From the IMG/VR virus record IMGVR_UViG_3300034283_001726, positions 1 through 25,627 of that record: a stretch of DNA of 25,627 bases; one strand, written 5' to 3'. Numbering within the stretch: the first letter of the stretch is position 1; each line of letters begins with the position of its first letter. Source of the stretch: a virus. The position numbers were made by a program, and so were the translations under genes. Below are positions 2,437-18,062 of the stretch, piece after piece. The notes beneath the pieces are model-generated. The model was not told the origin of the DNA. It did no database searches and worked only from the letters and a program-made list of their open reading frames with translations.

Positions 2437-3138
2437 ATGATAATAAAAGATTTAGATTCATTAGAGGTTATCAAGAACGAACTTGGTATGAATATTTCAG
2501 AATTGGCGGATTTCTTAAATGTTAGTCGTCCGACCATTTACAAGTGGGAAAAAGAAGGAATTCCCGAATCCAAAAAACCGATGGTTCGTTTTAAAATGGA
2601 AAAGCACAGGCCTTTTGGAAGTTCTGACCTTATGAGCATGGTTCAGGAAAATTCTTCCTATTACATTAATAAGAACGGAAACACTTTTGACAAAATAAAC
2701 AATCAGTTGTTTATTACCGTGCCGTTGGTGCCTTTTCCTGCATTTGCTCAATACCTACATTTAGCAGAATCGAATGCTTCACAATTTGAGGAATTTGAGC
2801 GAATGACCTTCCCGGTTGATCACTTGGGTAAAGGAAACTACATGGCCTTTAAAATTTCTGGAGACAGTATGAACGGTGGCGGCATTGATGACGTGCCTGA
2901 TGGCTCAATCGTGTTGGCTCGTGAAATTGGTATGCACCTATGGAAAGATGGGTTTAGAAAAACAAAGCATGGTTTTGTGATTGTGACTACCACTAATATA
3001 ATGGTCAAAGATATTATTGAACAAGTAGATGCCGAAATAACTTGCCAAAGCAGAAACAAAAGCCCAGAATTTACCGAATTTGTTTTGTCTCTGGCGGACG
3101 TTCGAAAAATTTTTCATGTAGTCAAAAGGGTGATGTAA
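2437..3138 (+). CDS. Phage repressor, Xre HTH fused to S24 (LexA/CI-type) domain
   Basis: A 233-aa CI-type repressor. Residues about 16-43 form an Xre helix-turn-helix (MNISELADFLNVSRPTIYKW). Residues about 130-230 form the S24 domain, with the serine nucleophile S144 in FKISGDSMN and the general base K191 in IMVKDII. It should hold the prophage silent by binding operators in the adjacent intergenic region. In related Bacteroidota repressors I recall an Ala-Gly cleavage dipeptide in a segment like 'Y-A-G-Y-L'. Here the matching stretch reads FPAFAQYL, with A104-Q105 in that place, and no Ala-Gly or Cys-Gly occurs between residues 60 and 145. The gene is followed by a strong terminator. The ATG at 2437 starts right after an A-rich leader. 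Confidence 0.9.
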   Translation: MIIKDLDSLEVIKNELGMNISELADFLNVSRPTIYKWEKEGIPESKKPMVRFKMEKHRPFGSSDLMSMVQENSSYYINKNGNTFDKINNQLFITVPLVPFPAFAQYLHLAESNASQFEEFERMTFPVDHLGKGNYMAFKISGDSMNGGGIDDVPDGSIVLAREIGMHLWKDGFRKTKHGFVIVTTTNIMVKDIIEQVDAEITCQSRNKSPEFTEFVLSLADVRKIFHVVKRVM

Positions 3139-3172
3139 TTCGCCTTTTTTTTAACTAATATTTAACTAAAAT

Positions 3173-3210
3173 AAAAACCCTGACTTAAATTGCTTTAAAT
3201 CAGGGTTTTA
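3173..3210. terminator. Strong bidirectional terminator after the repressor gene
   Basis: A long stem, AAAACCCTGA(C)TTAAA then loop TTGC then TTTAA(A)TCAGGGTTTT, is flanked by an A run upstream and a T run downstream. It ends repressor transcription from the left and can also stop antisense transcription. Confidence 0.85.
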
Positions 3211-3220
3211 TTGTTTATTG

Positions 3221-3240
3221 TTGTGATCCCAGCAGGATTA
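3221..3240. other. Putative attP core resembling a tRNA 3' end
   Basis: The sequence TTGTGATCCCAGCAGGATTA reads on the minus strand as AATCCTGCTGGGATCACAA. That is what the 3' end of a tRNA gene looks like: end of the T-loop (AAT), 3' half of the T-stem (CCTGC), 3' half of the acceptor stem (TGGGATC), then the discriminator base A. The rest of a tRNA is absent: the next bases (TTAGTAA in place of TTCGAAT) break the T-loop. It lies between the repressor terminator and the integrase start, where attP is expected. The isotype cannot be told from this half. Confidence 0.55.
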
Positions 3241-3250
3241 CTAACAAACC

Positions 3251-3296
3251 ACCGCAAATATAGGCATTTATAGTTTATTTATACTTTTGTTGCGGT
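3251..3296. repeat. Inverted repeat ACCGCAA...TTGCGGT before the integrase
   Basis: ACCGCAA at 3251-3257 and TTGCGGT at 3290-3296 are perfect complements 32 bp apart, between the putative attP core and the integrase start. A TAnnTTTG match (TACTTTTG, 3282-3289) lies just before the right arm, but no TTG sits at the right distance upstream. The repeat could be an integrase/Xis arm site or an operator. Confidence 0.4.
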
Positions 3297-3374
3297 TTTT
3301 GATGGTGTTTTAAATTTTTTCACTGACATTTGAATATATAAAATACTGTCTATTTCTTTAACTATAATTTAACC

Positions 3375-4532
3375 GTGTCAATATCCATTTACTTGCACCC
3401 CAAAAAATACAGCGATGGCACCAGACCCGTTATGGTTCGGGTTATAAAGGACAAAACGGTTTATAAGACTATTTGCAAAGTACCTGATAAAGATTGGGAT
3501 TCCAAAAATAAGAAAGTCAAGCGTTCGCATGGTTCTTACATTAACTTAAACGCGTTAATTTCGGAGGAATTTCAGAAGTACGAAAAACGGTACTTTGATT
3601 TATTGGCTAAAAACAAAAACTTTAAAGCCTCTGATGTTTTCGAAGATGAGAAACTAAATGATGAAAACTTGGTTTCGGCTTTTGATAGATACCTGGTCCA
3701 CATTTCACAAAATCTTGAATTAAGCACAATCGAAAAATATCGATCATTTTATTATTTTCTGCAGTCGTGTTTCAATACTGAAAATGTAACTGACATTGAC
3801 GATGGTTTGGTTATGAAGATAGTTGGTAAACTCAAAGCCAATGGCAACAACCAAAACAGTATTTTTAGGCGTATTTCTTTTTTCAAGTCGTTTGTAAAAT
3901 GGGCAAACAAAGAATTTAACCTAAGAATTGACGTTGAAAACCCAGCCAAAAAGCATAAATCCAAAAAAGAAAAACTATCTGTTGAGGAAATTACACTGTT
4001 GGCACAATTTGACTTGTCAAAATTTGGTAAAAAAACTCAGGTTGCACGTGATATTTTTTTGATGCAATATTATTTGTATGGCTCGAGAGTTTCCGATGTT
4101 TTACGGCTTAGGCTTGACGATGTTAAGCCCGACCGAATCAATATAGTACAACACAAAACAAAAGCGATTGTGAGCGTTAAATTAAGCCAAAGCATTAAAG
4201 ATATTATTGATAAATACAAAGGCCAATCGCTTTTCTTTGTATTTCCCGAACTTGACCGATTTATGCCTGATGTTACCCACAAAAACATTGATTCTGTGGT
4301 GGCTTTAATGAATAAAAATCTGCGGATTGTAGCCCATGCCTGCGGTATTGAAAAACATATATCAACCCATGTAGCCCGGCATTCTTTCGCTACCAATGCG
4401 GATAAGGTGGTAATGGACAAACGGCATATTTCAAAGGCTTTAGGACATAGCACCTTTAAAATGACAGAAAATTACCTTTCAGATTTGCGAGATGATGAAA
4501 TAGACGATTCAATGAGTGAGCTTTATAATTAA
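3375..4532 (+). CDS. int: Tyrosine-recombinase integrase
   Basis: A 385-aa phage integrase of the tyrosine recombinase family, which joins attP to the host attB. An N-terminal arm-binding-like part (1-90) and a SAM-like core-binding part (about 97-185) precede the catalytic domain (about 200-375). All catalytic residues are visible: R238 (YGSRVSD), K263 (HKTK), H332 and R335 (THVARH), H358 (LGH) and the nucleophile Y367 (TENYLS). The start is a GTG: an in-frame TAA lies at 3339 and no ATG occurs between it and 3375. Without the GTG the first ATG would be Met20, cutting into the N-terminal domain. The gene follows the repressor on the same strand but behind a terminator, so it probably has its own promoter. 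It ends convergent with the lysis operon. Confidence 0.95.
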   Translation: MSISIYLHPKKYSDGTRPVMVRVIKDKTVYKTICKVPDKDWDSKNKKVKRSHGSYINLNALISEEFQKYEKRYFDLLAKNKNFKASDVFEDEKLNDENLVSAFDRYLVHISQNLELSTIEKYRSFYYFLQSCFNTENVTDIDDGLVMKIVGKLKANGNNQNSIFRRISFFKSFVKWANKEFNLRIDVENPAKKHKSKKEKLSVEEITLLAQFDLSKFGKKTQVARDIFLMQYYLYGSRVSDVLRLRLDDVKPDRINIVQHKTKAIVSVKLSQSIKDIIDKYKGQSLFFVFPELDRFMPDVTHKNIDSVVALMNKNLRIVAHACGIEKHISTHVARHSFATNADKVVMDKRHISKALGHSTFKMTENYLSDLRDDEIDDSMSELYN

Positions 4533-5715: not shown

Positions 5716-5933
5716 TATTTTAAAGTATCAGATTTAGCCAATTTATGCTTCAAAGAATCTTTATTTACGCCCAGTTTTAGGGCTTCCTGTAGAGTGACTT
5801 TGAAATAGCTATCTTTTTGTTTTAGCTGGTGTTGTGTATAGCTTAAATAAGCCAATAACACCAATATTGAAATAAAGAAAAAAGCCAAAAGCACCATAAA
5901 TGGCGGAATTTCTTTTTTAAGTAACTTAATCAT
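5715..5933 (-). CDS. 72-aa single-span membrane protein (possible inner spanin)
   Basis: The chosen start is ATG 5933, giving MIKLLKKEIPPF..., a basic N-terminus, one membrane helix (about 11-31, FMVLLAFFFISILVLLAYL) and a short Lys-rich, helical outer part to residue 72. A longer frame starts at 6026, but it would overlap the holin-like gene by 101 bases and add an unconvincing extension. The start at 5933 gives an eight-base overlap instead. The layout (anchor plus short helical ectodomain, directly after endolysin and holin) fits an i-spanin or a holin partner; this is inference only. Confidence 0.6.
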   Translation of the reverse strand: MIKLLKKEIPPFMVLLAFFFISILVLLAYLSYTQHQLKQKDSYFKVTLQEALKLGVNKDSLKHKLAKSDTLK

Positions 5934-6321
5934 TCCCGTACTTTTTTTTAAGGTGACCAATAAATAATTCAACTGTCGTATCGTATAGTTCCGGAAGTGC
6001 CTGAGCAAAGAAACCAATGCCAACACCTACTATTAACTCGTTAAAATGTATTTTTTCAGCCACCCATCCGGTGGTTAAATAACTCAATACCGCACCCAAT
6101 ACAGTAACCGAAATCAGAAACAACAATGTTTTCCTTTTTACCTCTATGCCTGATTTTTGAGACCTTACATACTCCATCAGCAGATACAGCCATTGACCAA
6201 CCGCTCCAATTACACCGTGCCAGACATTAAAGCCCGAAAAGAACACTATTGCCGATGATCCAGATAGCAATATGGCCGCATAGGTGAATAATGAATCTAA
6301 AAAATTTTCCTTTGGTATCAT
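5926..6321 (-). CDS. Putative phage holin
   Basis: A 131-aa protein with several hydrophobic segments (approximately residues 11-29, 33-50, 65-85 and 94-112), a basic cytoplasmic loop (VRSQKSGIEVKRK, 52-64) and a charged end (HLKKKYGND). It directly follows the M15 endolysin gene with a four-base ATGA overlap. Holins make the membrane lesion that lets the endolysin reach the peptidoglycan. The call rests on topology and position rather than a recognised family. The frame continues eight bases into the next membrane-protein gene. Confidence 0.6.
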   Translation of the reverse strand: MIPKENFLDSLFTYAAILLSGSSAIVFFSGFNVWHGVIGAVGQWLYLLMEYVRSQKSGIEVKRKTLLFLISVTVLGAVLSYLTTGWVAEKIHFNELIVGVGIGFFAQALPELYDTTVELFIGHLKKKYGND

Positions 6322-6773
6322 GCTTTTGAATATTGAGTTCTTCTTCCTTTTTTTACTGCTCTTAATGCTTCACGCCTGTTTTTTTTGTCGTCAAACGATA
6401 AATGAATCCAAGAATCAAATTCCTGTATCAATTGGTCAAACGGCAAATCTGTCTTTAAAATTTCCTGAAATAATTCCTCGGTGGTAAACCCTGCAACCCG
6501 AATGTCCACCGCTTTGCCTTCCATGTGCTGACTTGTGACCGCTCCGCCAATCAACTTGTTTAACCGCTTGCTTCTGTACCCGCTTGTGATTGTTATTGGT
6601 TTGCCCAAAATTTCCCTTAAAGGCTCTAAAATGTGAGTTGACAATTTTTTAAGATTGTCAACTATGGCATTTGAAGGGCTGAATTGTTCCTCAACATTCA
6701 ACCTTACCGCCGTTTGACTTGCGGTAAATTCCTTTAAGGTAAAATTTTCGGTTACTTTCATTTTTTTAAACAA
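6318..6773 (-). CDS. Endolysin, zinc peptidase of family M15 (M15A-like)
   Basis: A 151-aa peptidoglycan peptidase. The zinc ligands and catalytic frame of the M15 family are present: TITSGYRSKRLNKLIGG (61-77), H83 and D90 in SQHMEGKAVDI, and H124 in WIHLSF. E118 or D120 upstream of the last histidine may be the catalytic acid. M15A enzymes cut peptide bonds in cell-wall peptides, and in phages they serve as endolysins. The N-terminal FTLKEFTASQTA segment is the usual lead-in of this subfamily. The length is that of a single-domain enzyme with no wall-binding module and no signal peptide, so export depends on a holin. It overlaps the upstream gene by eight bases and the holin-like gene by four. 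Confidence 0.9.
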   Translation of the reverse strand: MFKKMKVTENFTLKEFTASQTAVRLNVEEQFSPSNAIVDNLKKLSTHILEPLREILGKPITITSGYRSKRLNKLIGGAVTSQHMEGKAVDIRVAGFTTEELFQEILKTDLPFDQLIQEFDSWIHLSFDDKKNRREALRAVKKGRRTQYSKA

Positions 6774-7207: not shown

Positions 7208-8887
7208 TTATTTTTTACAATACTGCTTTACCTTATCCAATGTACTTCTGTTTACTCCTGCGGTTGCTCCTGAAACATTAATTGTAGAAACATTTACGCT
7301 ACTCGTTCCGGCTGCTAATGTCGGGCATATAGGGTTTCCTGATTCGTGGTTTTCGTTCCAGCTGTAATACACTATTGTTTTGCACCTTGGGTTTGAATTG
7401 ATAAAAGAAATCAATGCCTCGTGCTTGGCATCCATGTCGGCATTTGATGCTTTCTCAGTCCAATATTCTACCGGAGGATTGTTTAGACTGCTCCGTTTCC
7501 AATAGTTTTCAGCACCTGTTGTAATGCATGGAATAATGTCTCTATCCGAATTCCTCATAAATTTGTTTCTCTCCGCAATTTCGGCATTGGTAATCCTTGA
7601 ATGTGGCAATTGAGACTTAAAGCCATCTGCAGACTCTCTAAATCCAAAGGTAGCATAAACACTTGATGCATCATGTGATGTGTTTGGATATGTGTTGTAT
7701 TCTCCAAGTTCACAAACGTATAACTGACCACCTCCCGATTTAGCTGCATAAGACGCTTTTACTGCACTTAAATGAGGCCATGCCGTACTTACAAAAAACA
7801 ACGGCTTACCATCTATTTTTTGATAATAATCCTTCATCATCTTATCGGTCATGTAGTCAATATTTTGAGCCACATTCCAGCCTATTGGACCCGATGTGTA
7901 GCACATTTTTAAACCTTGCTTGTTTGTCGTTTGAATAAATTTGTGTGCAGCTTCGCCCACTGGTGAATCATAAGGGCTATACCATAGAAACGCCCAGTAA
8001 TCTATTCCAGCATCTTTTGCATAACCAATTTCCTTTTCCATTGCCATTGGAGTAAGGTTGAATTTACACGTCACGTTTTTGTTTATTGTTGTAAAATCGT
8101 TTTTGTCTGTAATTGGATTGTATGTGAGTGAGTTTATAATTGGAATGCTTGTAGGTGCAAGATTTTGCTCACCAAAAAAAGGAACTACATTGGCACTTGC
8201 AAATTCTGTCAAATCCACTCTGATTCCGCTTGTTACGTTTATGCCTTGGTCATAAGTTTTACCACCGACACTTTGTCTTGGTTTTAGTAAGTAATCATCA
8301 TAATAACCATCCCAGCGAAACGCACCTACCGGAACTGTTATTTTACCCGTTTTTGGTGGTGTTGGATTAATAGCTTTTGGGATATATTCTCCTGCGTCGT
8401 TTTTGTAATATCCAAGTTTTAAAATTTCTGCTTCAGGAAAATTGCTTGGCGAATATAAGCCACCAAGTTCGGATTTGGTGCTTACTATATTACTTGGAAT
8501 AGGTGCATTTACTTTGGTTTGATCGTTTTGTAAAAGGTTAATCCCTCGTGGTACATAGTAAGTCCTTGATGCGTTTGTTTGTAATAAATGGTATTGGCCG
8601 CCTAACATTTTCGCTACCAAAATACGCTCAGGTACAACCCAGTAACCCAATTGTATTTCGTCTTGGTTACTTGGGCCTACAGGAAAGACCGGTGGAATAG
8701 TTACCGTTGGCTTGGTTATTGGCTTTGATATCTCCACAAATGTATTGCGATACAAGTATAAGCCTTTGTCTTTTAGCGAATAATAGAGTTTTCCTTCTAA
8801 TGGTTTTCTGACATTAGAAATGTCTTGAACAACGTTTTGAGCATAAGAGCCAAACGAAATGAGTAATAGAACAAACAGTTTTTTCAT
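7208..8887 (-). CDS. Secreted GH99/WbsX-like putative glycoside hydrolase
   Basis: A 559-aa protein with a Sec signal peptide (MKKLFVLLLISFGSYA, likely cut before Q17). A linker and fibre-like N-terminal part (about 20-185) precede a probable TIM-barrel domain (about 185-525). That domain shows landmarks of GH99-like/WbsX proteins: 'GAFRWDGYYDD' (188-198), 'EIGYAKDAGIDYWAFLWY' (286-303), 'YYQKIDGKPLFFVST' (354-368) and the C-terminal 'YYSWNENHESGNPICPT' (507-523), resembling the family's W-N-E-W..G..I-P box. Family members act on mannose-type and other cell-surface glycans. It lies between tail and lysis genes, where depolymerases are expected, yet a cleavable signal peptide is unusual for a virion part. 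It may be exported by the lysogen or during lysis. Which acid is catalytic is not certain (E512 is a candidate). Confidence 0.65.
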   Translation of the reverse strand: MKKLFVLLLISFGSYAQNVVQDISNVRKPLEGKLYYSLKDKGLYLYRNTFVEISKPITKPTVTIPPVFPVGPSNQDEIQLGYWVVPERILVAKMLGGQYHLLQTNASRTYYVPRGINLLQNDQTKVNAPIPSNIVSTKSELGGLYSPSNFPEAEILKLGYYKNDAGEYIPKAINPTPPKTGKITVPVGAFRWDGYYDDYLLKPRQSVGGKTYDQGINVTSGIRVDLTEFASANVVPFFGEQNLAPTSIPIINSLTYNPITDKNDFTTINKNVTCKFNLTPMAMEKEIGYAKDAGIDYWAFLWYSPYDSPVGEAAHKFIQTTNKQGLKMCYTSGPIGWNVAQNIDYMTDKMMKDYYQKIDGKPLFFVSTAWPHLSAVKASYAAKSGGGQLYVCELGEYNTYPNTSHDASSVYATFGFRESADGFKSQLPHSRITNAEIAERNKFMRNSDRDIIPCITTGAENYWKRSSLNNPPVEYWTEKASNADMDAKHEALISFINSNPRCKTIVYYSWNENHESGNPICPTLAAGTSSVNVSTINVSGATAGVNRSTLDKVKQYCKK

Positions 8888-8897
8888 ATTTTGTATA

Positions 8898-9263
8898 TTA
8901 ATTATTATTGTTTTGTAATAAAGAATAACCGTACATTTCGGCTAATTTTTGAGCATTAAGTTCTATTTCGTCAAGCGTTCCGTAGTCAAGCCCTTTTAAA
9001 ACAGACTTAACAGTGAACGTTGCCTCCTCTTCTGTTTTTCCTCCTGCTACCAATTTTTGCACCAAGTCATTACTTGAAAAATATCTTGCGTTATAAAGCG
9101 AACCTGAATCTTGCACAAATGCAATCCATAAATCCCTTACTTTAAATTCGTTTCTGCTGTATTCCACTGCTGAAACTGCACTGCACATTATGCCGACTAT
9201 TGTTCTTGTTTCTCCTACCTCGTCAGTAAAAGATTTCGGCTCTACATCCCAAATGTAACCCAT
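8898..9263 (-). CDS. Unknown 121-aa protein following the tail fibre
   Basis: A 121-aa soluble protein starting MGYIWDVEPKSFTDEVGE and ending in four asparagines. I recognise no domain. It sits between the giant tail protein and the secreted GH99-like gene with very short spacers (32 and 10 bases), so it is co-transcribed with the tail genes. Small proteins in this place are often fibre chaperones or tip accessory proteins. Because the giant fibre lacks the usual C-terminal S74 self-chaperone, a chaperone role is worth considering, but nothing in the sequence proves it. Confidence 0.6.
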   Translation of the reverse strand: MGYIWDVEPKSFTDEVGETRTIVGIMCSAVSAVEYSRNEFKVRDLWIAFVQDSGSLYNARYFSSNDLVQKLVAGGKTEEEATFTVKSVLKGLDYGTLDEIELNAQKLAEMYGYSLLQNNNN

Positions 9264-9295: not shown

Positions 9296-12200
9296 TTATA
9301 TTAAATATAATACTTCATAGCCAAAAAGAAATGTAGTCCCAACTTGCCTGTTTCCAATTCTTAAAGTTTCTGTCCTTAAAGACCCATCTACAAAAAGCTC
9401 GTTAGAATTTAATTCTGCACTGTTCCATGCTTTTGAATTTGGGCTTTGTCCGATATAAACATGCCCATTTTGTCTATGTATAGCAACTCCACCCATCACC
9501 GTACCACCGTTAACAGTCTGCATTGTCAGCATTGTTGGGTCAGCAGCTCCATCTACTCCTGCTCTAAATCCTACAAAACCACCGTTGTTGGTTAGTCCAA
9601 CTTCAGCAAAAAATATGTTCCTATCATATCCATCTTGTCCATTTATCCGAATAATGTTAACATTTGAGGCTAAATTATTAGTCATCACGACTGAACCATT
9701 GGAATAAGTAAAATCAGCACTACTTGTTACTGTATTGCTTCCACTTCCAAATGCTATTTGTGTAGCTGCTAATGTACCACCGCTTGGTATTGCTTGCGTA
9801 GATAAAACACCAGTTGCATCAGCTACAACCATTCTTGTGCCTGTTCCTGACAAACTACCAATAATTGTACTTGTTCCATACAAACCTACGGACTGCGAAT
9901 TGGCGTCTATCTGTATTTTCTTCGAGGATTCTATTCTAAGCCTCTCAATAAATTCATTGTCGTAATAAATTGAAGCCATAGTTGTCCCGTTCTTTTGAAA
10001 CCTAAGTGCGGCACTATCAGAAATACCAGTGGCACTATTTAAGATAAGTTCAGTTTTATTAGTTTCCGCTCCATTGGCTGTTAAGATAATATTTTTGTTG
10101 AATGCAGTATTACCAACGTCCAAAACCGTATCTAAATCCTGTGTTGTCCATGTCGGATTTGCTCCTGAGCCTTGACTTGTCAAAACTTGACCTGCCGTTC
10201 CTGCAAGATTATTGAGCAAAATACGACCCTGAAAACTGTGGTTTGACTGTGAAAATATATTACCACCGCTAATTACTTGCAATTCGAGATTTCCACCGTG
10301 AACATATAGCCCGTAGTTGCTTGAACCAACATATCTGGCTACTTCCATTTTGCTTGTAGTACCTTCTTTGATAGCGATAATCCTGTCGGATTCAAATACA
10401 AAGTTTTCACTGCTTGTCAAAAGGTTTGAGCCACTTCCAAACCCGATTCTTGTACTTGTAAGTGTAGGTGCTGGCAATGTCGCCCAAGTTTGGTCTCCTC
10501 TCAAGAACGTTGTTGCTGATGCCGTACCCGAACCCAAGCGAGCCGTTGCAATGACACCCGAAACAATATCCACTGCTGCGTGTGTGTGTGCTGCTGGTGC
10601 AAACGTTGCAGGTACTCCGCTAAGTTTTGTCCAAGCCAATGATGAAATCCAAGTCGGGTTTGCGTAACTTCCAGCCAAAGCCACAAATCTTCCGTCTGAT
10701 TCTGTTTTTGTATAAGCATCCGTTATGGCATAACCTGCTAAAGTTGTTGGGTTAGTTCCTGATGTTACTAATCCTTTATTGTTTATAGTAACGCTCCTAT
10801 ATGTTCCTGCGGTGGCTACATTTGCAAGTGTCAAAGCTATTGATGTCGTTCCTGACCCAGTAGCATCACCAGTTATTGATATGGTTTGGTTGCCACTTAT
10901 AAATGTAGGAGTAAAATATTCTAATGCTGTTGCTCCTGCATTAACCCTAAGCAATTGGTTTGCCGTACCTATCGCTGATAATCCTGTTCCGCCCCTTGTT
11001 GTTGCTATTGTCGTACCGTTCCATGCTCCTGCCGTTATAGTTCCTAATGTTGTTATGCTTGTAGAACCTGCCCAACTACTAAGGTTTGATATATCGGAGG
11101 TTGTTATTAAACTCCAAACGCTTGTGCCGTTTACATTAGTACACTTTAAGAAATTACCAACTGTCGCACCGCTTGTAATAAGTATGCTTGATGTTCTTAT
11201 TGTTCCTGCAACGTCTAAAGTATAAGCTGGGCTTGCTGTATTGATTCCTACAAACCCACTATTTGCAATCCTCATTACTTCCGTTCCTACTGCTTTAGTT
11301 CCGTATGTTCCAACGTAAAACTGGTGTTGTGTTGCTGGTTCTGCCAATCCTGTACCTCCTCCGTAATTAATCTGATTGATGCCATTAATAGCATTAAACA
11401 TTAAACCAGTCATACCGTTATTGGTATAACTACCTCCTATAATTCTGAATGCTCCAGTTGTGTTAATTGTTTCCGAATGTCTTAATATAATTCCTGTTGC
11501 ATTAACAATGTCAATTTTATAAGTAGGACTTGTTGTTCCTATTCCTATATTAGTTCCGTTATCAAATATTTGGCTATTTGCAAAAGCTGAACCTCCCCAC
11601 TTTGAAACATAATTAGTAGTTAATGCTGTCGGAGTAACAAAATAAGAAGCCGTATCTAATGACCAAGTATTTAATGCTGTCTTCCTTAATATTCCACTTG
11701 TGCCTGCTAATGCAGCTATGGCTGTTAAATCTGCATCAAGCGGTTGATACGTTGTTGATGCCGTACTTGCTAATAAATACCCTGCACTTGCATGATTGCC
11801 CCAGCCAAAAGCCGTATTCCAATTAGCTGAATTGTTAGTAACATAAGTTATTGTTCCAGCAGTTGACAATACTAATCCTGTTCCGCTTAATGTTGCTTGT
11901 TTACTATCTAATGCGGTTTGCAATCCTGACGTCTTAGCAATACTTAAAGCTGCATCGGCTATTGCTGTGGTTATTGCAGTCGTTCCCGAACCTGTTACAA
12001 TTCCTGTTAGTGTAATGGTTTGGTTACCCGAAATCCTTGCATTTATTTGCCCTTGCAACTTTTCCAAAGCAACTTCCAACGAATCTGTATCTAATACAGT
12101 TGAATTTGCACCTGTAACAAAACCACTAACTATTTGAGCATAAAAATCAGTAATTCCATACCCTGAAACCGTTGTCGGGTTTGTTCCTGCGGTTACTAAA

Positions 12201-15200
12201 CCTTTGGCGTTGACCGTAACACTTTGATAAGTGCCTGCGGTTGCTACGTCTGCCAAAGTCAAAGCCCCTGACACGTCCGCACTTCCGTTGAAACTAACCG
12301 ACCAAGTACCATCGCCAGTTGCAGATATTGTTCTTGCAGTCGTTAATATAGGTGAACTTGCAACACTTACAACACCACTGCCATCTATTGTTAATCCCGT
12401 TCCTATTTTGATTCCACCCAAAACAGAAGCTGTTGCTATTGGTAAGGTTAAGAAATTAGACCTCTTTAGCCATGCAGTTCCATTCCAATATATTTCATCT
12501 CCTGCTGCGTAAGTAATTCCAAGATATGTTCCTGCGGTGTTTACCACATAATAATCTCCTGTTGTAGGACTTGCACTTGGTGCTACTCCACTATTTGCTG
12601 CCCATTCTCCAATGTACCTTTCAGAAGTCAAAGGAGTGACCCATTCACCAGCTCCATTAACATTATTGCACTGCCAAACTTTACCTACCGCAGCACCGTT
12701 CGTAATTCTTAGGTTTGTGGTTCGTGTAACTCCCAAAACGTCTAATTCGGTCGTTGGTACTGTGCTTCCTGCTCCTATTCCTACATTTCCTCTGAAATGG
12801 TTTTGAGCTGTTCCATCAAAATAAGCTCCGTACCTATTAGTGCCAGACGCAATAGTACTTTGAAATCCGTAAACATTCGTAAATCCCGCATTGGTTGCCC
12901 TTGCCCTAAAATTAATTAAGTTTGTTCCAGTACCGTTTATAGTACCTACTTGTGATTCATAACCTATTATAGAAGCAATTGCATAGTTTGCTTGATTAAT
13001 AACGGCTCTAAAAAAGAATCCACTTGTTGTAACAACTGATTGTAGTTGTCCACTTGACCTTATACCAGAAGCCTCGGTGTCTCCTGTAATACTTTTATTT
13101 ACAATCAAAGAGTTAGTCCCTGCACCTGATCCGATATTAACATCACCTCCACTTGATATATTAAGTCTATTAACACCGTTTGTAACTAAAGCTAAAGCAT
13201 CCGCACTTGGACTGTATAATCCTGTGTTTAAGTCTCCAATAAACGAATATGATGGATTAGCTAAACTTCCCAAGCTTGCTGAAACCTGACCTACCACGTG
13301 CAATTTTGTTGCAGGGCTTATTGTTCCTATTCCTACGTTGCTATCAAATATAGCATTGCCTGTGCTGTGCAATGTTCCTGTTATATCTAAATTATAAGTA
13401 GGCAAAATATTGTTTATTCCTACGTTTGTGCCGTTGTCAAATATTAGGCTATTAGTTAGCCCTCCAGTTGCGTTTGACCACTTAGTTACAAAGTTGGTTG
13501 TTCCGCTTCCGTTGGCCTTAGCGTTTAATTGGGTTTGTATTGGACTTGTGACGCCCTTTAAATATGTGAGTTCGGTCAAACTTGGATAGGTAGCAGTATC
13601 AAGCGATACAATGTTTTTGCTTGCATCCGTGGCCGTTAATTGGCTTACGTTTAAGCCCGAAATGTTTAATGCCGGAACAGTAAGCCCACCACTACGCCAA
13701 CGCCCCACCTCTACATTATTGCGAAGTATCGGAATGTCAAAGTTTCCGGCAATTGTTCCAAATGGTTTTTCAGCGGTTACGGTGTTTCCGCCTTGCATCC
13801 ATGCGTTTGCAGTTACCCATTCCTCCAAGGCATAAGTTCCGTTTGCTGCTGGCTTTATGTGTGTGTAATCGTTTTCGGTGTCTTCGGCTTCTGTGGTTAT
13901 GATTCCTCCTGCTACCGATTTTGAATAGAAAACATCGGCAAATGCTGAATCCATCCTCATGTCGGAATTCATCATGATTACAGATTTACCACTTGGCAAA
14001 ACCTTTTTAGCAAAGTTTACGCTGCTGAATTCTGGAATATCAATTCTATTAACTGCCCGGTCAATTTTTTCTTCAATTAGCTTTTCATCCTCATTGGGCT
14101 GTAGTGTTTCTTCGTCTATGCCTGATGTGCTATTGGTTGCAAGTTCTACGGCCTTTACTTCGGTATTGTGCATTCTGGCATTATACTTGGCATTGTGAAG
14201 CCTGTATTTTACGCCCATAATGCCCACCAAATCGCCAAAACCTAATGATTCCCAAATAGTACCTTGGTAGGTTTGCAAACGCTTTCCAAGTACCTTTAAA
14301 TAGCTATTACTTACAAACACATCAATAGCTTCCCCTGCTATTACATTGCTTTTACTGTAAAACTTCACCAAGGAACTATCAGCGGTGGTTTTAAACAATG
14401 AATCTGTACCCGTTGGATAACTCGGCCAACCAATACCAAGGTCAACCGTTAAATCTGTTTCACGGTCTTGGGTGTCCTCTAAGGTAAATTTCCTTTCAAA
14501 ACCTTCCGAAATGTTGGCATCAAGATTTCCAACTTTAATATTTATGTTGTCGATGAATAATCCATAAGCAGCATCTGTCGCACCTGGTCCCGCTGATTCT
14601 GATTCTCCCCTTTCAGGAAAAAATATTCTGATAATCAAATAATACTCTGCATTTTCAGGGAACATTTCCATCAAAAACGGATTGTTCCAAAATCCAAAGT
14701 TACCAATCTGATTGAGTTGGTTTATAAACTCGTTGTTTGCGTGGTATGGTGGCCTTGGTATCTCAATTTTTAGTTTGTCTCCGCTTGGTTTAACCTCATA
14801 AATTGGACTTCCGAAAAAATTGCCACCTTCATAGTCGGGAACTTGGTCATTTTCTACACTATACCAATTTCCATCTGTACTCAAAAAATTAGGTATTCCC
14901 CCCGGACCATTAAAGCCCGTGATAATTTGCATTCTTAGGTTAGTAAGAACGCTACCCATTTTTACATCGGCTTCAATGGTTAGCTTTTCGTTTTCTGCAA
15001 AGGTTTGGAATGGTGTATAAAGGAACTGCGGTGATTGGAGATAACTCTGGTCAACCCCTACGGCTTCTGCTGAACTAAAACTTGCCTTTGAATTATAAAG
15101 CTGACCCCCATTTATAACATAAAAAAGTCCTGCAGCCCCCGAAAACGTCCACCCGGTAAGGTTGTCCATTTTGCCCCAACTGTTGCGGATAGGCATATTA

Positions 15201-16045
15201 GATTTGGCTTTCTTAACAACAACACTCTGGTGGCTAAACATCCGCCCAAAATAACCGCTCTGCCTATCTACATAAGCTTTGGTTGGTCGATTGTACGACA
15301 ACTCGGTAAAAGATAAATCAGTCCAATTGTAGGTCGTAATGGTGCTATTGTGCGAACTTACCTCATCCACATTACGAACAAACCAACATCCGTTAACGTG
15401 GTCAAAGAAAACTTGGTTGTACGGCTTACGGATTCGGTCTATTACTTCATAGCAATTCAGGCCTTCAAAGTCTATATCATCGCAGTAGGCCTCCCAATAC
15501 TTTATCGGTGCTGCATCAAAAATACTTCCATCATAGCATTTAGTATTATCAATAACTTTAATCGGGAAATTATCAATAAATCCGATTTGAGCCAAACAAG
15601 TTTTTAAAACTGAAATTAGCTTTACCCTTGTGCTGGTAGGTACGTATTTCTTATTTTTAAGGTTTCGAAGTCCGCATTCAGCACTTAGCGTTATTGGATA
15701 ACCACCGTTTCTGTCCAAATCATTAGCTTCAAACGGTGTAATGATAGCGTTTGACCTTAATGCTCCGTTTACCCTGAATTTCAGAATGTAGTCACCGTAC
15801 TTTTGCTTTGAGAAATACGAACTATTGAACGTCTCGGTGGCTGACATCATTACCGTGGCCACCGTTGGCACTATTCCACCAAGATATTTTTCGGCTACAT
15901 CGTTGTTATTTTCGGTCACAAATGGTTCGGCACCTGCTTGAAGTTCAATGGTGTCGGTGGTTGTTCCTTCCTCCCAAATCTCCACACGGTGGGTTTCCTC
16001 TAATAAAGATTGGTACTCGAAAAAGAATTTTAGAAATTTTGCCAT
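9296..16045 (-). CDS. Giant tail tip/fibre protein (2249 aa)
   Basis: The largest gene, 6.75 kb. Residues 1 to about 700 are non-repetitive and probably form the tail-tip hub and carbohydrate-contact region. The remainder is fibre-like, rich in Gly/Thr/Ser/Asn. It carries several copies of the Bacteroidota fibre motif 'N-[VI]-G-I-G-T-x-S-P-x-x-K-L-D-V' (near residues 875, 903, 1088, 1498 and 1597). It also has two copies of a longer block: 'TLADVATAGTYQSVTVNAKG' near 1262 and 'TLANVATAGTYRSVTINNKG' near 1739. It directly follows the tape measure, the place of Dit/Tal proteins, which have no separate genes here. The C-terminus ends FLFGYEVLYLI without the peptidase S74 chaperone domain often found in such fibres. 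It should determine host binding. Confidence 0.85.
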   Translation of the reverse strand: MAKFLKFFFEYQSLLEETHRVEIWEEGTTTDTIELQAGAEPFVTENNNDVAEKYLGGIVPTVATVMMSATETFNSSYFSKQKYGDYILKFRVNGALRSNAIITPFEANDLDRNGGYPITLSAECGLRNLKNKKYVPTSTRVKLISVLKTCLAQIGFIDNFPIKVIDNTKCYDGSIFDAAPIKYWEAYCDDIDFEGLNCYEVIDRIRKPYNQVFFDHVNGCWFVRNVDEVSSHNSTITTYNWTDLSFTELSYNRPTKAYVDRQSGYFGRMFSHQSVVVKKAKSNMPIRNSWGKMDNLTGWTFSGAAGLFYVINGGQLYNSKASFSSAEAVGVDQSYLQSPQFLYTPFQTFAENEKLTIEADVKMGSVLTNLRMQIITGFNGPGGIPNFLSTDGNWYSVENDQVPDYEGGNFFGSPIYEVKPSGDKLKIEIPRPPYHANNEFINQLNQIGNFGFWNNPFLMEMFPENAEYYLIIRIFFPERGESESAGPGATDAAYGLFIDNINIKVGNLDANISEGFERKFTLEDTQDRETDLTVDLGIGWPSYPTGTDSLFKTTADSSLVKFYSKSNVIAGEAIDVFVSNSYLKVLGKRLQTYQGTIWESLGFGDLVGIMGVKYRLHNAKYNARMHNTEVKAVELATNSTSGIDEETLQPNEDEKLIEEKIDRAVNRIDIPEFSSVNFAKKVLPSGKSVIMMNSDMRMDSAFADVFYSKSVAGGIITTEAEDTENDYTHIKPAANGTYALEEWVTANAWMQGGNTVTAEKPFGTIAGNFDIPILRNNVEVGRWRSGGLTVPALNISGLNVSQLTATDASKNIVSLDTATYPSLTELTYLKGVTSPIQTQLNAKANGSGTTNFVTKWSNATGGLTNSLIFDNGTNVGINNILPTYNLDITGTLHSTGNAIFDSNVGIGTISPATKLHVVGQVSASLGSLANPSYSFIGDLNTGLYSPSADALALVTNGVNRLNISSGGDVNIGSGAGTNSLIVNKSITGDTEASGIRSSGQLQSVVTTSGFFFRAVINQANYAIASIIGYESQVGTINGTGTNLINFRARATNAGFTNVYGFQSTIASGTNRYGAYFDGTAQNHFRGNVGIGAGSTVPTTELDVLGVTRTTNLRITNGAAVGKVWQCNNVNGAGEWVTPLTSERYIGEWAANSGVAPSASPTTGDYYVVNTAGTYLGITYAAGDEIYWNGTAWLKRSNFLTLPIATASVLGGIKIGTGLTIDGSGVVSVASSPILTTARTISATGDGTWSVSFNGSADVSGALTLADVATAGTYQSVTVNAKGLVTAGTNPTTVSGYGITDFYAQIVSGFVTGANSTVLDTDSLEVALEKLQGQINARISGNQTITLTGIVTGSGTTAITTAIADAALSIAKTSGLQTALDSKQATLSGTGLVLSTAGTITYVTNNSANWNTAFGWGNHASAGYLLASTASTTYQPLDADLTAIAALAGTSGILRKTALNTWSLDTASYFVTPTALTTNYVSKWGGSAFANSQIFDNGTNIGIGTTSPTYKIDIVNATGIILRHSETINTTGAFRIIGGSYTNNGMTGLMFNAINGINQINYGGGTGLAEPATQHQFYVGTYGTKAVGTEVMRIANSGFVGINTASPAYTLDVAGTIRTSSILITSGATVGNFLKCTNVNGTSVWSLITTSDISNLSSWAGSTSITTLGTITAGAWNGTTIATTRGGTGLSAIGTANQLLRVNAGATALEYFTPTFISGNQTISITGDATGSGTTSIALTLANVATAGTYRSVTINNKGLVTSGTNPTTLAGYAITDAYTKTESDGRFVALAGSYANPTWISSLAWTKLSGVPATFAPAAHTHAAVDIVSGVIATARLGSGTASATTFLRGDQTWATLPAPTLTSTRIGFGSGSNLLTSSENFVFESDRIIAIKEGTTSKMEVARYVGSSNYGLYVHGGNLELQVISGGNIFSQSNHSFQGRILLNNLAGTAGQVLTSQGSGANPTWTTQDLDTVLDVGNTAFNKNIILTANGAETNKTELILNSATGISDSAALRFQKNGTTMASIYYDNEFIERLRIESSKKIQIDANSQSVGLYGTSTIIGSLSGTGTRMVVADATGVLSTQAIPSGGTLAATQIAFGSGSNTVTSSADFTYSNGSVVMTNNLASNVNIIRINGQDGYDRNIFFAEVGLTNNGGFVGFRAGVDGAADPTMLTMQTVNGGTVMGGVAIHRQNGHVYIGQSPNSKAWNSAELNSNELFVDGSLRTETLRIGNRQVGTTFLFGYEVLYLI

Positions 16046-16049
16046 TTTA

Positions 16050-18062
16050 TCAACCGAATTTATAATTTGCTACATCAATCGCCCCTTTCAAAGCTGAACC
16101 TTGGGCTTCTAATACAACAGGATTAAAAGTTATATTAAGACCATTTGAACCAAAGCCTGGTCCATTACTTGCACCACCACGAGTATTTCTTTGTGTTGAT
16201 GCTCCAAGATTGCTATTTGCACTCATGGCCATTCCACCGCCTTTTAATGCAGCTCCAAAAGCTAACATTTTACCACCTCCTAACATTTTTGTTGTACCTG
16301 AGCCGGGCGTTGCAATATTCATTAAAAGTCCTGCGGTTAATTCGGCTGCACCTATCCTTAGCATCATATCGCCTAATGCTGCTAAGAATCCAGCAATGAT
16401 TTTAGAAAAATCAAATTTGATGTCTCTATTAAAAATTGAAGCAAAACCAGTGGCCAAAGTATCACCAAGCATTCCAAAACCCTGCTGCATGTTACCACTT
16501 ACTTCTGCAAAATTTTCACTTGTTATATCTCCAAAAATTGTAGATATTTTTTCCATTCCTGTTGCTACAATAGGCTGTATTCTTTGGGCTAATGCTTTGT
16601 ATCTTTGTTGTATGTTTGTTGCGAATTCTTCTTCTCCAATACCGATTTGCTTTATTTTTTCCTTTGAAGTAGAATCGTTTTGTTTTGCCTTTTCAGGAGT
16701 AAATCCGTTTCGACGAATCTTTTCTGTTTGTTCTTGTAAAGCAGCGATTCTTTTACGAGTTTCTTCTGTTTCAAGCCCTAAAAGCGTCATTTCAAAAGTG
16801 TAGTCTTGAACGGCCTTATTTGCATTCTTCATTTTAGGCTCACCGCTTTGCAACTCATTGAAAAAAGCCATGATGTCTTTACTTGCGGTTTTCATCGCAG
16901 CCACAATTTTGGCCATTGGATTTGATGTGGTTTTTTGCCATCTTGTGACTTTTTCAATAGATTTATCCATGTCACCAAATGCACTTACAGCGGTTGCCCC
17001 CATTGAAAAAGCAGCAATATTAAAAAGTACTTTTAGTTTTAAGATTTGCGTTTCTAAATCAACAAAGAAGTTTTTTACTTCTTCCCAATGTGTAAGCACA
17101 TAAGCAGCGGCGGCTACTAATCCAACGGTAAAAAGGCCGATTGGTGTCATTAATCCCGTGAGTAAAACGCCAATGTTGGTAATTGCAGTAGCAATAGAAC
17201 CAATTGCAATCAATGCAGGGCCTATAAGAATTGCCAAACCGCCACCTATCAAAATGTTTGTTTTTGCGTTTTCGTCCAAGGCCAGAAATTCTTTGGATAG
17301 TTCGTTTACTTTGTGAACTACTGAATTGAAAATGGGCAACATAATTGAACCTAAAGAGGTGCTGACTTCTGAAACCAAACCTTTAAATTTTCGCATTTGG
17401 TTGGCTGCTCCGTCTTGGGTTCTTACAAAATCGCCTTGAGCGTTTTTGGTTACGTCCATTATATAAGCGTATCTTAGTGACACCTTTTGGGCTTGTGTCA
17501 TGTCTTCCATGTTGGTCTTGATACCTTTTGAAAGAGCAAAAGCCTTTAAATTAGCTTCGGTCATCACGATACCAAGTTCTTTTAAAGACTCCGTTTCTCC
17601 TGAAAAAATACCTTTTAATGCAGTTGAAGCTACTTGCTCATTTACGTTTTTGAAAGACATCAAATCCCCTTGTAGTCCTACCAATTGTTTTGACATTTCG
17701 GCTGCACTTTTTGTAGAAAAGCCCATTGACGTAGCCATGTCCCCAAACAATGAAGCCGCTTCTAATGCCGCAGCTTGTGAAATACCGAAAGATTCTAATG
17801 ATGTTTTGGCAAAAGCCTTGACTGATGCGGAAGATTCTTTAAATGCTACATCTACCTTGTTGATGGATTCCTCCATATCAGATGCGGACTTTACCATTGT
17901 AAAACCCAAAATTGTCAAAGGAAGTGACACCGCTAATGATAAATTTTTTCCCATATCCACGGCCTTGTTGTCAAAATCTTGCAACTTGCCCATGGCAGCA
18001 TCAATTTTCTTATTGTACTCTGTGGTAAGTGCATCGAGGTTTACATATAACACATCAGACAT
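16050..18062 (-). CDS. Tail tape measure protein
   Basis: A 670-aa tape measure protein, setting tail length and occupying the tail lumen. The N-terminus (VLYVNLDALTTEYNKKIDAA) is heptad-like. Residues about 55-230 match the TP901-type tape measure core: GIFSGETESLKELGIVMTEA at 151-170, preceded by the Ala-rich 'DMATSMGFSTKSAAEM' stretch. Strong hydrophobic segments lie at about 275-325. The C-terminus is Gly/Ser/Asn-rich and ends NPVVLEAQGSALKGAIDVAN. Together with the tube and frameshift chaperone this marks a siphovirus-type long flexible tail; 670 residues suggest a tail near 100 nm if the usual rule of about 1.5 Å per residue holds. Its ATG lies eight bases inside the end of the chaperone extension. 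Confidence 0.9.
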   Translation of the reverse strand: MSDVLYVNLDALTTEYNKKIDAAMGKLQDFDNKAVDMGKNLSLAVSLPLTILGFTMVKSASDMEESINKVDVAFKESSASVKAFAKTSLESFGISQAAALEAASLFGDMATSMGFSTKSAAEMSKQLVGLQGDLMSFKNVNEQVASTALKGIFSGETESLKELGIVMTEANLKAFALSKGIKTNMEDMTQAQKVSLRYAYIMDVTKNAQGDFVRTQDGAANQMRKFKGLVSEVSTSLGSIMLPIFNSVVHKVNELSKEFLALDENAKTNILIGGGLAILIGPALIAIGSIATAITNIGVLLTGLMTPIGLFTVGLVAAAAYVLTHWEEVKNFFVDLETQILKLKVLFNIAAFSMGATAVSAFGDMDKSIEKVTRWQKTTSNPMAKIVAAMKTASKDIMAFFNELQSGEPKMKNANKAVQDYTFEMTLLGLETEETRKRIAALQEQTEKIRRNGFTPEKAKQNDSTSKEKIKQIGIGEEEFATNIQQRYKALAQRIQPIVATGMEKISTIFGDITSENFAEVSGNMQQGFGMLGDTLATGFASIFNRDIKFDFSKIIAGFLAALGDMMLRIGAAELTAGLLMNIATPGSGTTKMLGGGKMLAFGAALKGGGMAMSANSNLGASTQRNTRGGASNGPGFGSNGLNITFNPVVLEAQGSALKGAIDVANYKFG

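Follow-up and report, generated by a model that had tools for sequence, protein, structure and literature searches.

The gene at positions 7208 to 8887 of the window, the complete 25,627-base IMG/VR record analysed here, may well encode a phage GH99-like glycoside hydrolase that is exported through the Sec pathway, probably made late, released at lysis and used to cut a surface or matrix polysaccharide; we place the probability of this reading at roughly 0.5. Across the relatives that we found, the enzyme is best read as a mobile phage glycanase module, predicted to be used in both exported and non-exported forms.

Reading frame, family and predicted fold

A single open frame of 559 amino acids fills 7208-8887 on the minus strand (8887 to 7208), while stop codons crowd the plus strand. 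The gene is real: a copy that is 97% identical and has the same signal peptide occurs in one viral contig, an 84% identical catalytic domain in another, and these together with the low dN/dS exclude a chance frame. Between the window and the second of these contigs (L002), the catalytic domain shows a dS of 1.25, a dN of 0.10 and a dN/dS of 0.08. The ratio is about 0.11-0.12 between the window and the first contig (L001), and the N-terminal part gives 0.14, a figure with few changes behind it. Such low ratios place the catalytic domain under purifying selection and imply that the protein is kept for function. The gene and its predicted parts are as follows.

7208..8887, minus strand: GH99-like protein gene, 559 aa (open frame; 97% identical full-length homologue in L001; dN/dS)
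8840..8887, minus strand: predicted Sec type I signal peptide, residues 1-16, MKKLFVLLLISFGSYA followed by Q (rule-based scan; kept in L001, absent from the L002 and L080 homologues)
8342..8839, minus strand: N-terminal module, residues 17-182, no known family (no Pfam match; shared only by L001, replaced in L002)
7211..8341, minus strand: GH99-like catalytic (beta/alpha)8 domain, residues 183-559 (hhalign against WbsX; AF2 model; Foldseek and VIA-align)
7979..8020, minus strand: AKDAGIDYWAFLWY, beta2 region of the barrel, residues 290-303 (aligns with AKAAGIHGFVYYYYWF of WbsX)
7793..7816, minus strand: IDGKPLFF, beta4 strand, residues 358-365 (compare DGKPLFF of Bacteroides GH99 structures and DGKP of WbsX)
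7319..7363, minus strand: SWNENHESGNPICPT box, residues 509-523, predicted catalytic pair E512 and E515 (invariance in 23 proteins; register with NEWHEG of 4acy)

All of the motifs quoted in the preliminary description are present, although the box that it called terminal lies 36 residues before the C-terminus and is better described as near-terminal.

No Pfam, PHROG or NCBIfam model recognises the 559-aa protein, and PADLOC also gave no usable match. The WbsX model (PF14307) does not reach the Pfam cut-off of 25.1 bits, with no match at E <= 10. A match to angiotensin-converting enzyme was due to chance, and Staphylococcus phage tail matches (E about 1) were dismissed for having no GH99-like family match. 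With a profile of three catalytic domains, the top PDB matches were all GH99 (E 0.24) and aligned on DGKPLFF, and the single plasmid tblastn match (E 0.8) was a WbsX-family protein (PF14307). When the window-type catalytic domains were aligned by hhalign with 15 WbsX domains, the probability was 96.7 and the E-value 4e-10, over a match that spans domain residues 96 to 352 and ends on the W-N-E box. As a control, we removed the WbsX alignment row that a search with the window sequence had turned up (a Bradyrhizobium protein). The match then stood at 6e-6, as compared to 0.005 for the best of 60 column shuffles and 0.67 for the reversed profile.

A more distant phage protein connects the two groups. 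The 71-kb viral contig L080 encodes a stand-alone 368-aa protein with a blastp E-value of 3e-13 to the window protein (P0001). By hhalign, the window protein matches it at 8.5e-9, the L080 protein matches viral WbsX on its own at 2e-7, and the three window-type proteins together with it match WbsX at a profile E-value of 7e-11. Against the PDB, the combined profile retrieved OpGH99A (8.5e-12), BtGH99 (8e-8) and human MANEA (7e-5). In these comparisons, the L080 protein is an independent, distant phage bridge from the window protein to WbsX, and homology to the GH99-like/WbsX superfamily holds up, with significant profile similarity over the domain under the controls described.

Canonical WbsX domains with a WNEWxEG box are encoded by 27 viral contigs (L051-L077). 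Several of these proteins are long and multi-domain, and others are stand-alone proteins of about 350 aa that recur near-unchanged in several contigs (L069-L076). Faecal 'Bacteriophage sp.' records with WbsX were set aside, as they are marked UNVERIFIED and give no proof of phage origin. On a Sphingobium plasmid (L047), the annotation splits the WbsX domain into three neighbouring CDS fragments, which hints at gene decay.

The predicted fold points the same way. An AF2 model of the domain, built from a 23-sequence alignment that included WbsX rows and thus not independent of the sequence homology, has eight alternating strands and helices in (beta/alpha)8 order (pTM 0.65; mean pLDDT 57.6, 70-94 in the core strands and helices). 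The region after beta8, which holds the catalytic box, falls below a pLDDT of 50 and is poorly modelled. An AlphaFold model of the full-length protein, made with three close sequences, reached a pLDDT of 29 and was set aside. When the domain model was searched with Foldseek, OpGH99A, GH99 and GH71 took the first 29 places (E 5e-9), and VIA-align gave Z-scores of 16.4-19.3 to these proteins, as compared to at most 14.8 for other barrels. The preliminary description had proposed a GH99/WbsX-like TIM barrel and had made this assignment depend on the fold and on the active-site acids. In agreement with it, the predicted structure is a TIM barrel most like GH99 and GH71, in a model whose input alignment held WbsX rows.

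Active site and relation to characterized families

According to PMC11025385, the catalytic glutamates of GH99 sit in EW[H/G]E (E404 and E407 in MANEA), the active-site motif of GH71 is DYGE, and the family placed next in relatedness after GH71 is that of the GH25 lysozymes. In the window protein, the box reads W510-N-E512-N-H-E515, in the same register as NEWHEG of BtGH99 (4acy), and W510, N511, E512 and E515 are invariant in all 23 aligned proteins. E512 and E515 keep the spacing of three between the two glutamates and are the predicted, retained counterpart of the GH99 catalytic pair, so that neither active-site acid is missing from the alignment with GH99-like structures. The complete EW[H/G]E motif is not kept, since the sequence here is ENHE with Asn in place of Trp; nor is DYGE of GH71, at whose position ENHE also stands. 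The GH99 substrate motif H[I/L]EPY (HLEPY) is likewise not kept, the aligned residues being TSGPI in a weak alignment (E 0.24). Given this replacement, mannan specificity should not be assumed. We therefore dropped mannose specificity, and the action on mannose glycans mentioned in the preliminary description is unsupported for this protein.

Compared with CAZy GH99 (BtGH99/BxGH99 and human MANEA), the window protein shares the predicted (beta/alpha)8 barrel, the colinear DGKPLFF and N-E-x-x-E motifs and both catalytic glutamates, but it is only about 15% identical, has Asn for the Trp of EWHE and no HLEPY, carries swapped N-terminal modules and lies among phage late genes. With the WbsX / GH99-like domain (PF14307), it shares detectable homology over most of the domain and the same catalytic box. 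It differs in lying below Pfam detection. In the portions examined, the canonical WbsX proteins, including those of L051-L077, lack an export signal at the N-terminus like that of the window protein, and several of them are long and multi-domain. OpGH99A (5ngw; from GH99-related proteins) is the best fold and combined-profile match; however, Robb et al. 2017 (cited in PMC13063451) describe it in their title as lacking catalytic machinery, and it reads NNWNIG at the catalytic box position in the combined-profile alignment, whereas the window protein keeps the pair. The GH71 alpha-1,3-glucanases have the same barrel (Z up to 18.9) and differ in DYGE versus ENHE.

Genome context and exchange of the gene

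The window carries minus-strand late genes, among them a prohead protease and a capsid gene (Pfam). The features that bear on the GH99-like gene are listed here.

16050..18062, minus strand: tape measure protein (phrog_1535, E 2e-35)
9296..16045, minus strand: 2249-aa modular tail protein, probable tail fibre or tip (PHROG matches including minor tail protein; N-terminal 755 aa conserved)
8898..9263, minus strand: 121-aa gene, constant upstream neighbour (in eight viral contigs)
6318..6773, minus strand: M15 peptidase endolysin (PF08291, E 1e-24; phrog_894, E 3e-48)
5926..6321, minus strand: small membrane protein in holin position (hydrophobic segments, directly after the endolysin; no family match)
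3375..4532, plus strand: tyrosine integrase (PF00589, E 5e-16; Arm-DNA-bind_5)

The order is tape measure, 2249-aa protein, 121-aa gene, GH99-like gene, another 121-aa gene, M15 endopeptidase and membrane protein, and the GH99-like gene starts 10 bp past its upstream neighbour. The placement between tail and lysis genes noted in the preliminary description is thereby borne out. On the plus strand, an HTH repressor and the tyrosine integrase together span 2437-4532 and indicate that the phage is temperate. Judging by the Arm-DNA-bind_5 integrase and the style of the signal peptide, the host presumably belongs to the Bacteroidota. The 2249-aa tail protein (9296-16045) is itself a mosaic: its first 755 residues are 96-99% identical in relatives, while the middle and distal parts are exchanged, the distal part being different in L002 and the last 196 residues being kept at 94% in L001.

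A scan of 2.9 million viral contigs yielded only two close relatives, L001 and L002, and there was no close relative among phage and bacterial genome records, including two scans of the bacterial genome collection that reach near relatives only. The L001 homologue is 97% identical over its full length, signal peptide included. The L002 homologue is 84% identical solely from residue 183 to the end; its first 215 residues are unrelated and lack a signal peptide, and its gene starts 10 bp after a tail-fibre gene whose product shares its first 755 residues with that of the window at 96% identity. The sharp join at about residue 183 implies that the catalytic domain is a movable module. The part that it replaces, residues 17-182, has no Pfam match and no phage tblastn match and is common only to L001. 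The contig L080 also encodes virion structural proteins; there, only 2 bp separate the homologue from the tail-fibre-like gene before it, which is repetitive and 427 aa long.

The gene as a whole is an optional late cassette. The 121-aa neighbour was found by scanning in eight contigs, and in six of them (L020-L025) the GH99-like gene is absent beside it: what comes directly after the 121-aa gene is a small gene, together with a second peptidase and membrane proteins. Between L001 and the window, the GH99-like gene is 97% identical in nucleotides and the neighbouring 121-aa gene 81%; this greater likeness of the GH99-like gene points to cassette exchange between phages.

Other genes occupy the corresponding interval elsewhere. 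Behind the GH99-like gene of L002 (L002:9212-10828) lie three ORFs, none with a PHROG match: one has a clear signal peptide (MKQLIMIALMLVGVPTFA followed by Q), one a lipoprotein-type signal (SCKAQ) and one an internal hydrophobic segment. At L018:4807-7824, in a phage that is further removed but has a related endolysin, two different genes of 472 and 528 aa, neither with a Pfam family, stand between the tail genes and the endolysin, and this pair is another possible cargo at the same slot.

Predicted export, possible delivery and alternative explanations

The signal peptide was called by a simple rule of our own that looks for an n-region, a hydrophobic core, an A-x-A-type cut site and the absence of a lipobox. 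By this rule-based scan, the N-terminus (MKKLFVLLLISFGSYA followed by QN) fits a Sec type I signal peptide cut after Ala16. There is no lipobox Cys after the predicted cut site, Gln being at +1, and a signal peptidase I site without a lipobox would make the mature protein a soluble, periplasmic one. The cleavable Sec signal of the preliminary description is thus plausible for residues 1-16 and, as L001 keeps it, export is likely for the window form. As a constant feature of the enzyme it did not stand, given the unsignalled L002 and L080 homologues behind tail-fibre-like genes.

In the exported-enzyme reading, the signal peptide would route the protein into the Sec pathway, leaving a mature protein composed of the 166-residue module and the (beta/alpha)8 domain, with Glu512 and Glu515 as a putative retaining GH99 catalytic pair. 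The position between tail and lysis genes makes late production probable. The mature enzyme would collect in the periplasm, be freed at lysis and hydrolyse a polysaccharide of the host surface or matrix, and this cutting may help progeny to leave or to reach new cells. Capsule or LPS, as suggested in the preliminary description, could be the substrate, although here we infer rather than observe. The L002 and L080 forms, with no signal peptide and tail-fibre-like genes ahead of them, count against the exported-enzyme reading, as do the loss of HLEPY, the Asn in place of the Trp of EWHE and the existence of non-catalytic GH99-like proteins such as OpGH99A.

The main rival is a virion-associated depolymerase, a domain in or on the tail tip that clears capsule or slime at adsorption, in which case the signal-like N-terminus would either serve as a hydrophobic peptide for attachment or reflect a recent fusion of little functional weight. 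This explanation suits the L002 and L080 forms better, since their genes lie 10 bp and 2 bp behind tail-fibre or tail-fibre-like genes, and tail proteins typically swap N-terminal modules while the enzyme part stays constant. For the protein as a whole it is a possible but clearly less probable account: both the window and L001 forms begin with a conserved, textbook Sec signal with an Ala-Gln cut site, which would draw the protein away from virion assembly in the cytoplasm, and neither Pfam nor phage tblastn revealed an anchor domain resembling any tail protein. A tentative proposal, to which we give slightly less weight, combines the two: a single phage GH99-like glycanase domain would have two delivery forms through exchange of its N-terminus, one unsignalled and beside the tail fibre, the other exported by Sec, stockpiled in the periplasm and freed at lysis as a soluble depolymerase.

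That the gene serves lysogenic conversion instead, as a moron expressed from the prophage whose exported product alters a glycan at the lysogen's surface or in its periplasm, for instance to keep other phages out, seems doubtful. The phage is temperate, the gene is optional in a variable slot and in L002 this interval holds other ORFs that carry a signal peptide or a lipoprotein signal; however, the gene shares the strand of the late genes with tight spacing, and its product has no lipobox to anchor it at the outer surface. Two further explanations are very improbable. An exported barrel that works beside the M15 endopeptidase by cleaving peptidoglycan or some other glycan of the envelope would fit the adjoining lysis genes, the predicted export and the relationship to GH25 lysozymes (PMC11025385), but six relatives have a full lysis cassette without the GH99-like gene, and the closest folds are GH99 and GH71, not GH25. 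A non-catalytic, glycan-binding protein like OpGH99A, its best single structural match, is equally hard to sustain, as OpGH99A has lost the pair whereas both glutamates here are invariant over a dS of 1.2.

In most descriptions, the enzymes with which phages degrade polysaccharides are domains of tail spikes. The window protein resembles tail-spike depolymerases in its probable polysaccharide-cutting role and its exchanged N-terminal parts, and differs from them in having a predicted TIM barrel rather than a beta-helix and, in the window form, a signal peptide. In the open literature that we searched, beyond which other papers may exist, GH99 is named in lists of virus-encoded carbohydrate genes and no study of a phage GH99-like enzyme was found. 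If the exported-enzyme reading and its module exchange are true, the signalled and unsignalled sister forms would be a natural pair for testing glycanase delivery from the virion versus the dying cell. The GH99-like superfamily would also extend into phage late modules through a sequence group that current family models miss, and similar genes are for this reason probably annotated as hypothetical.
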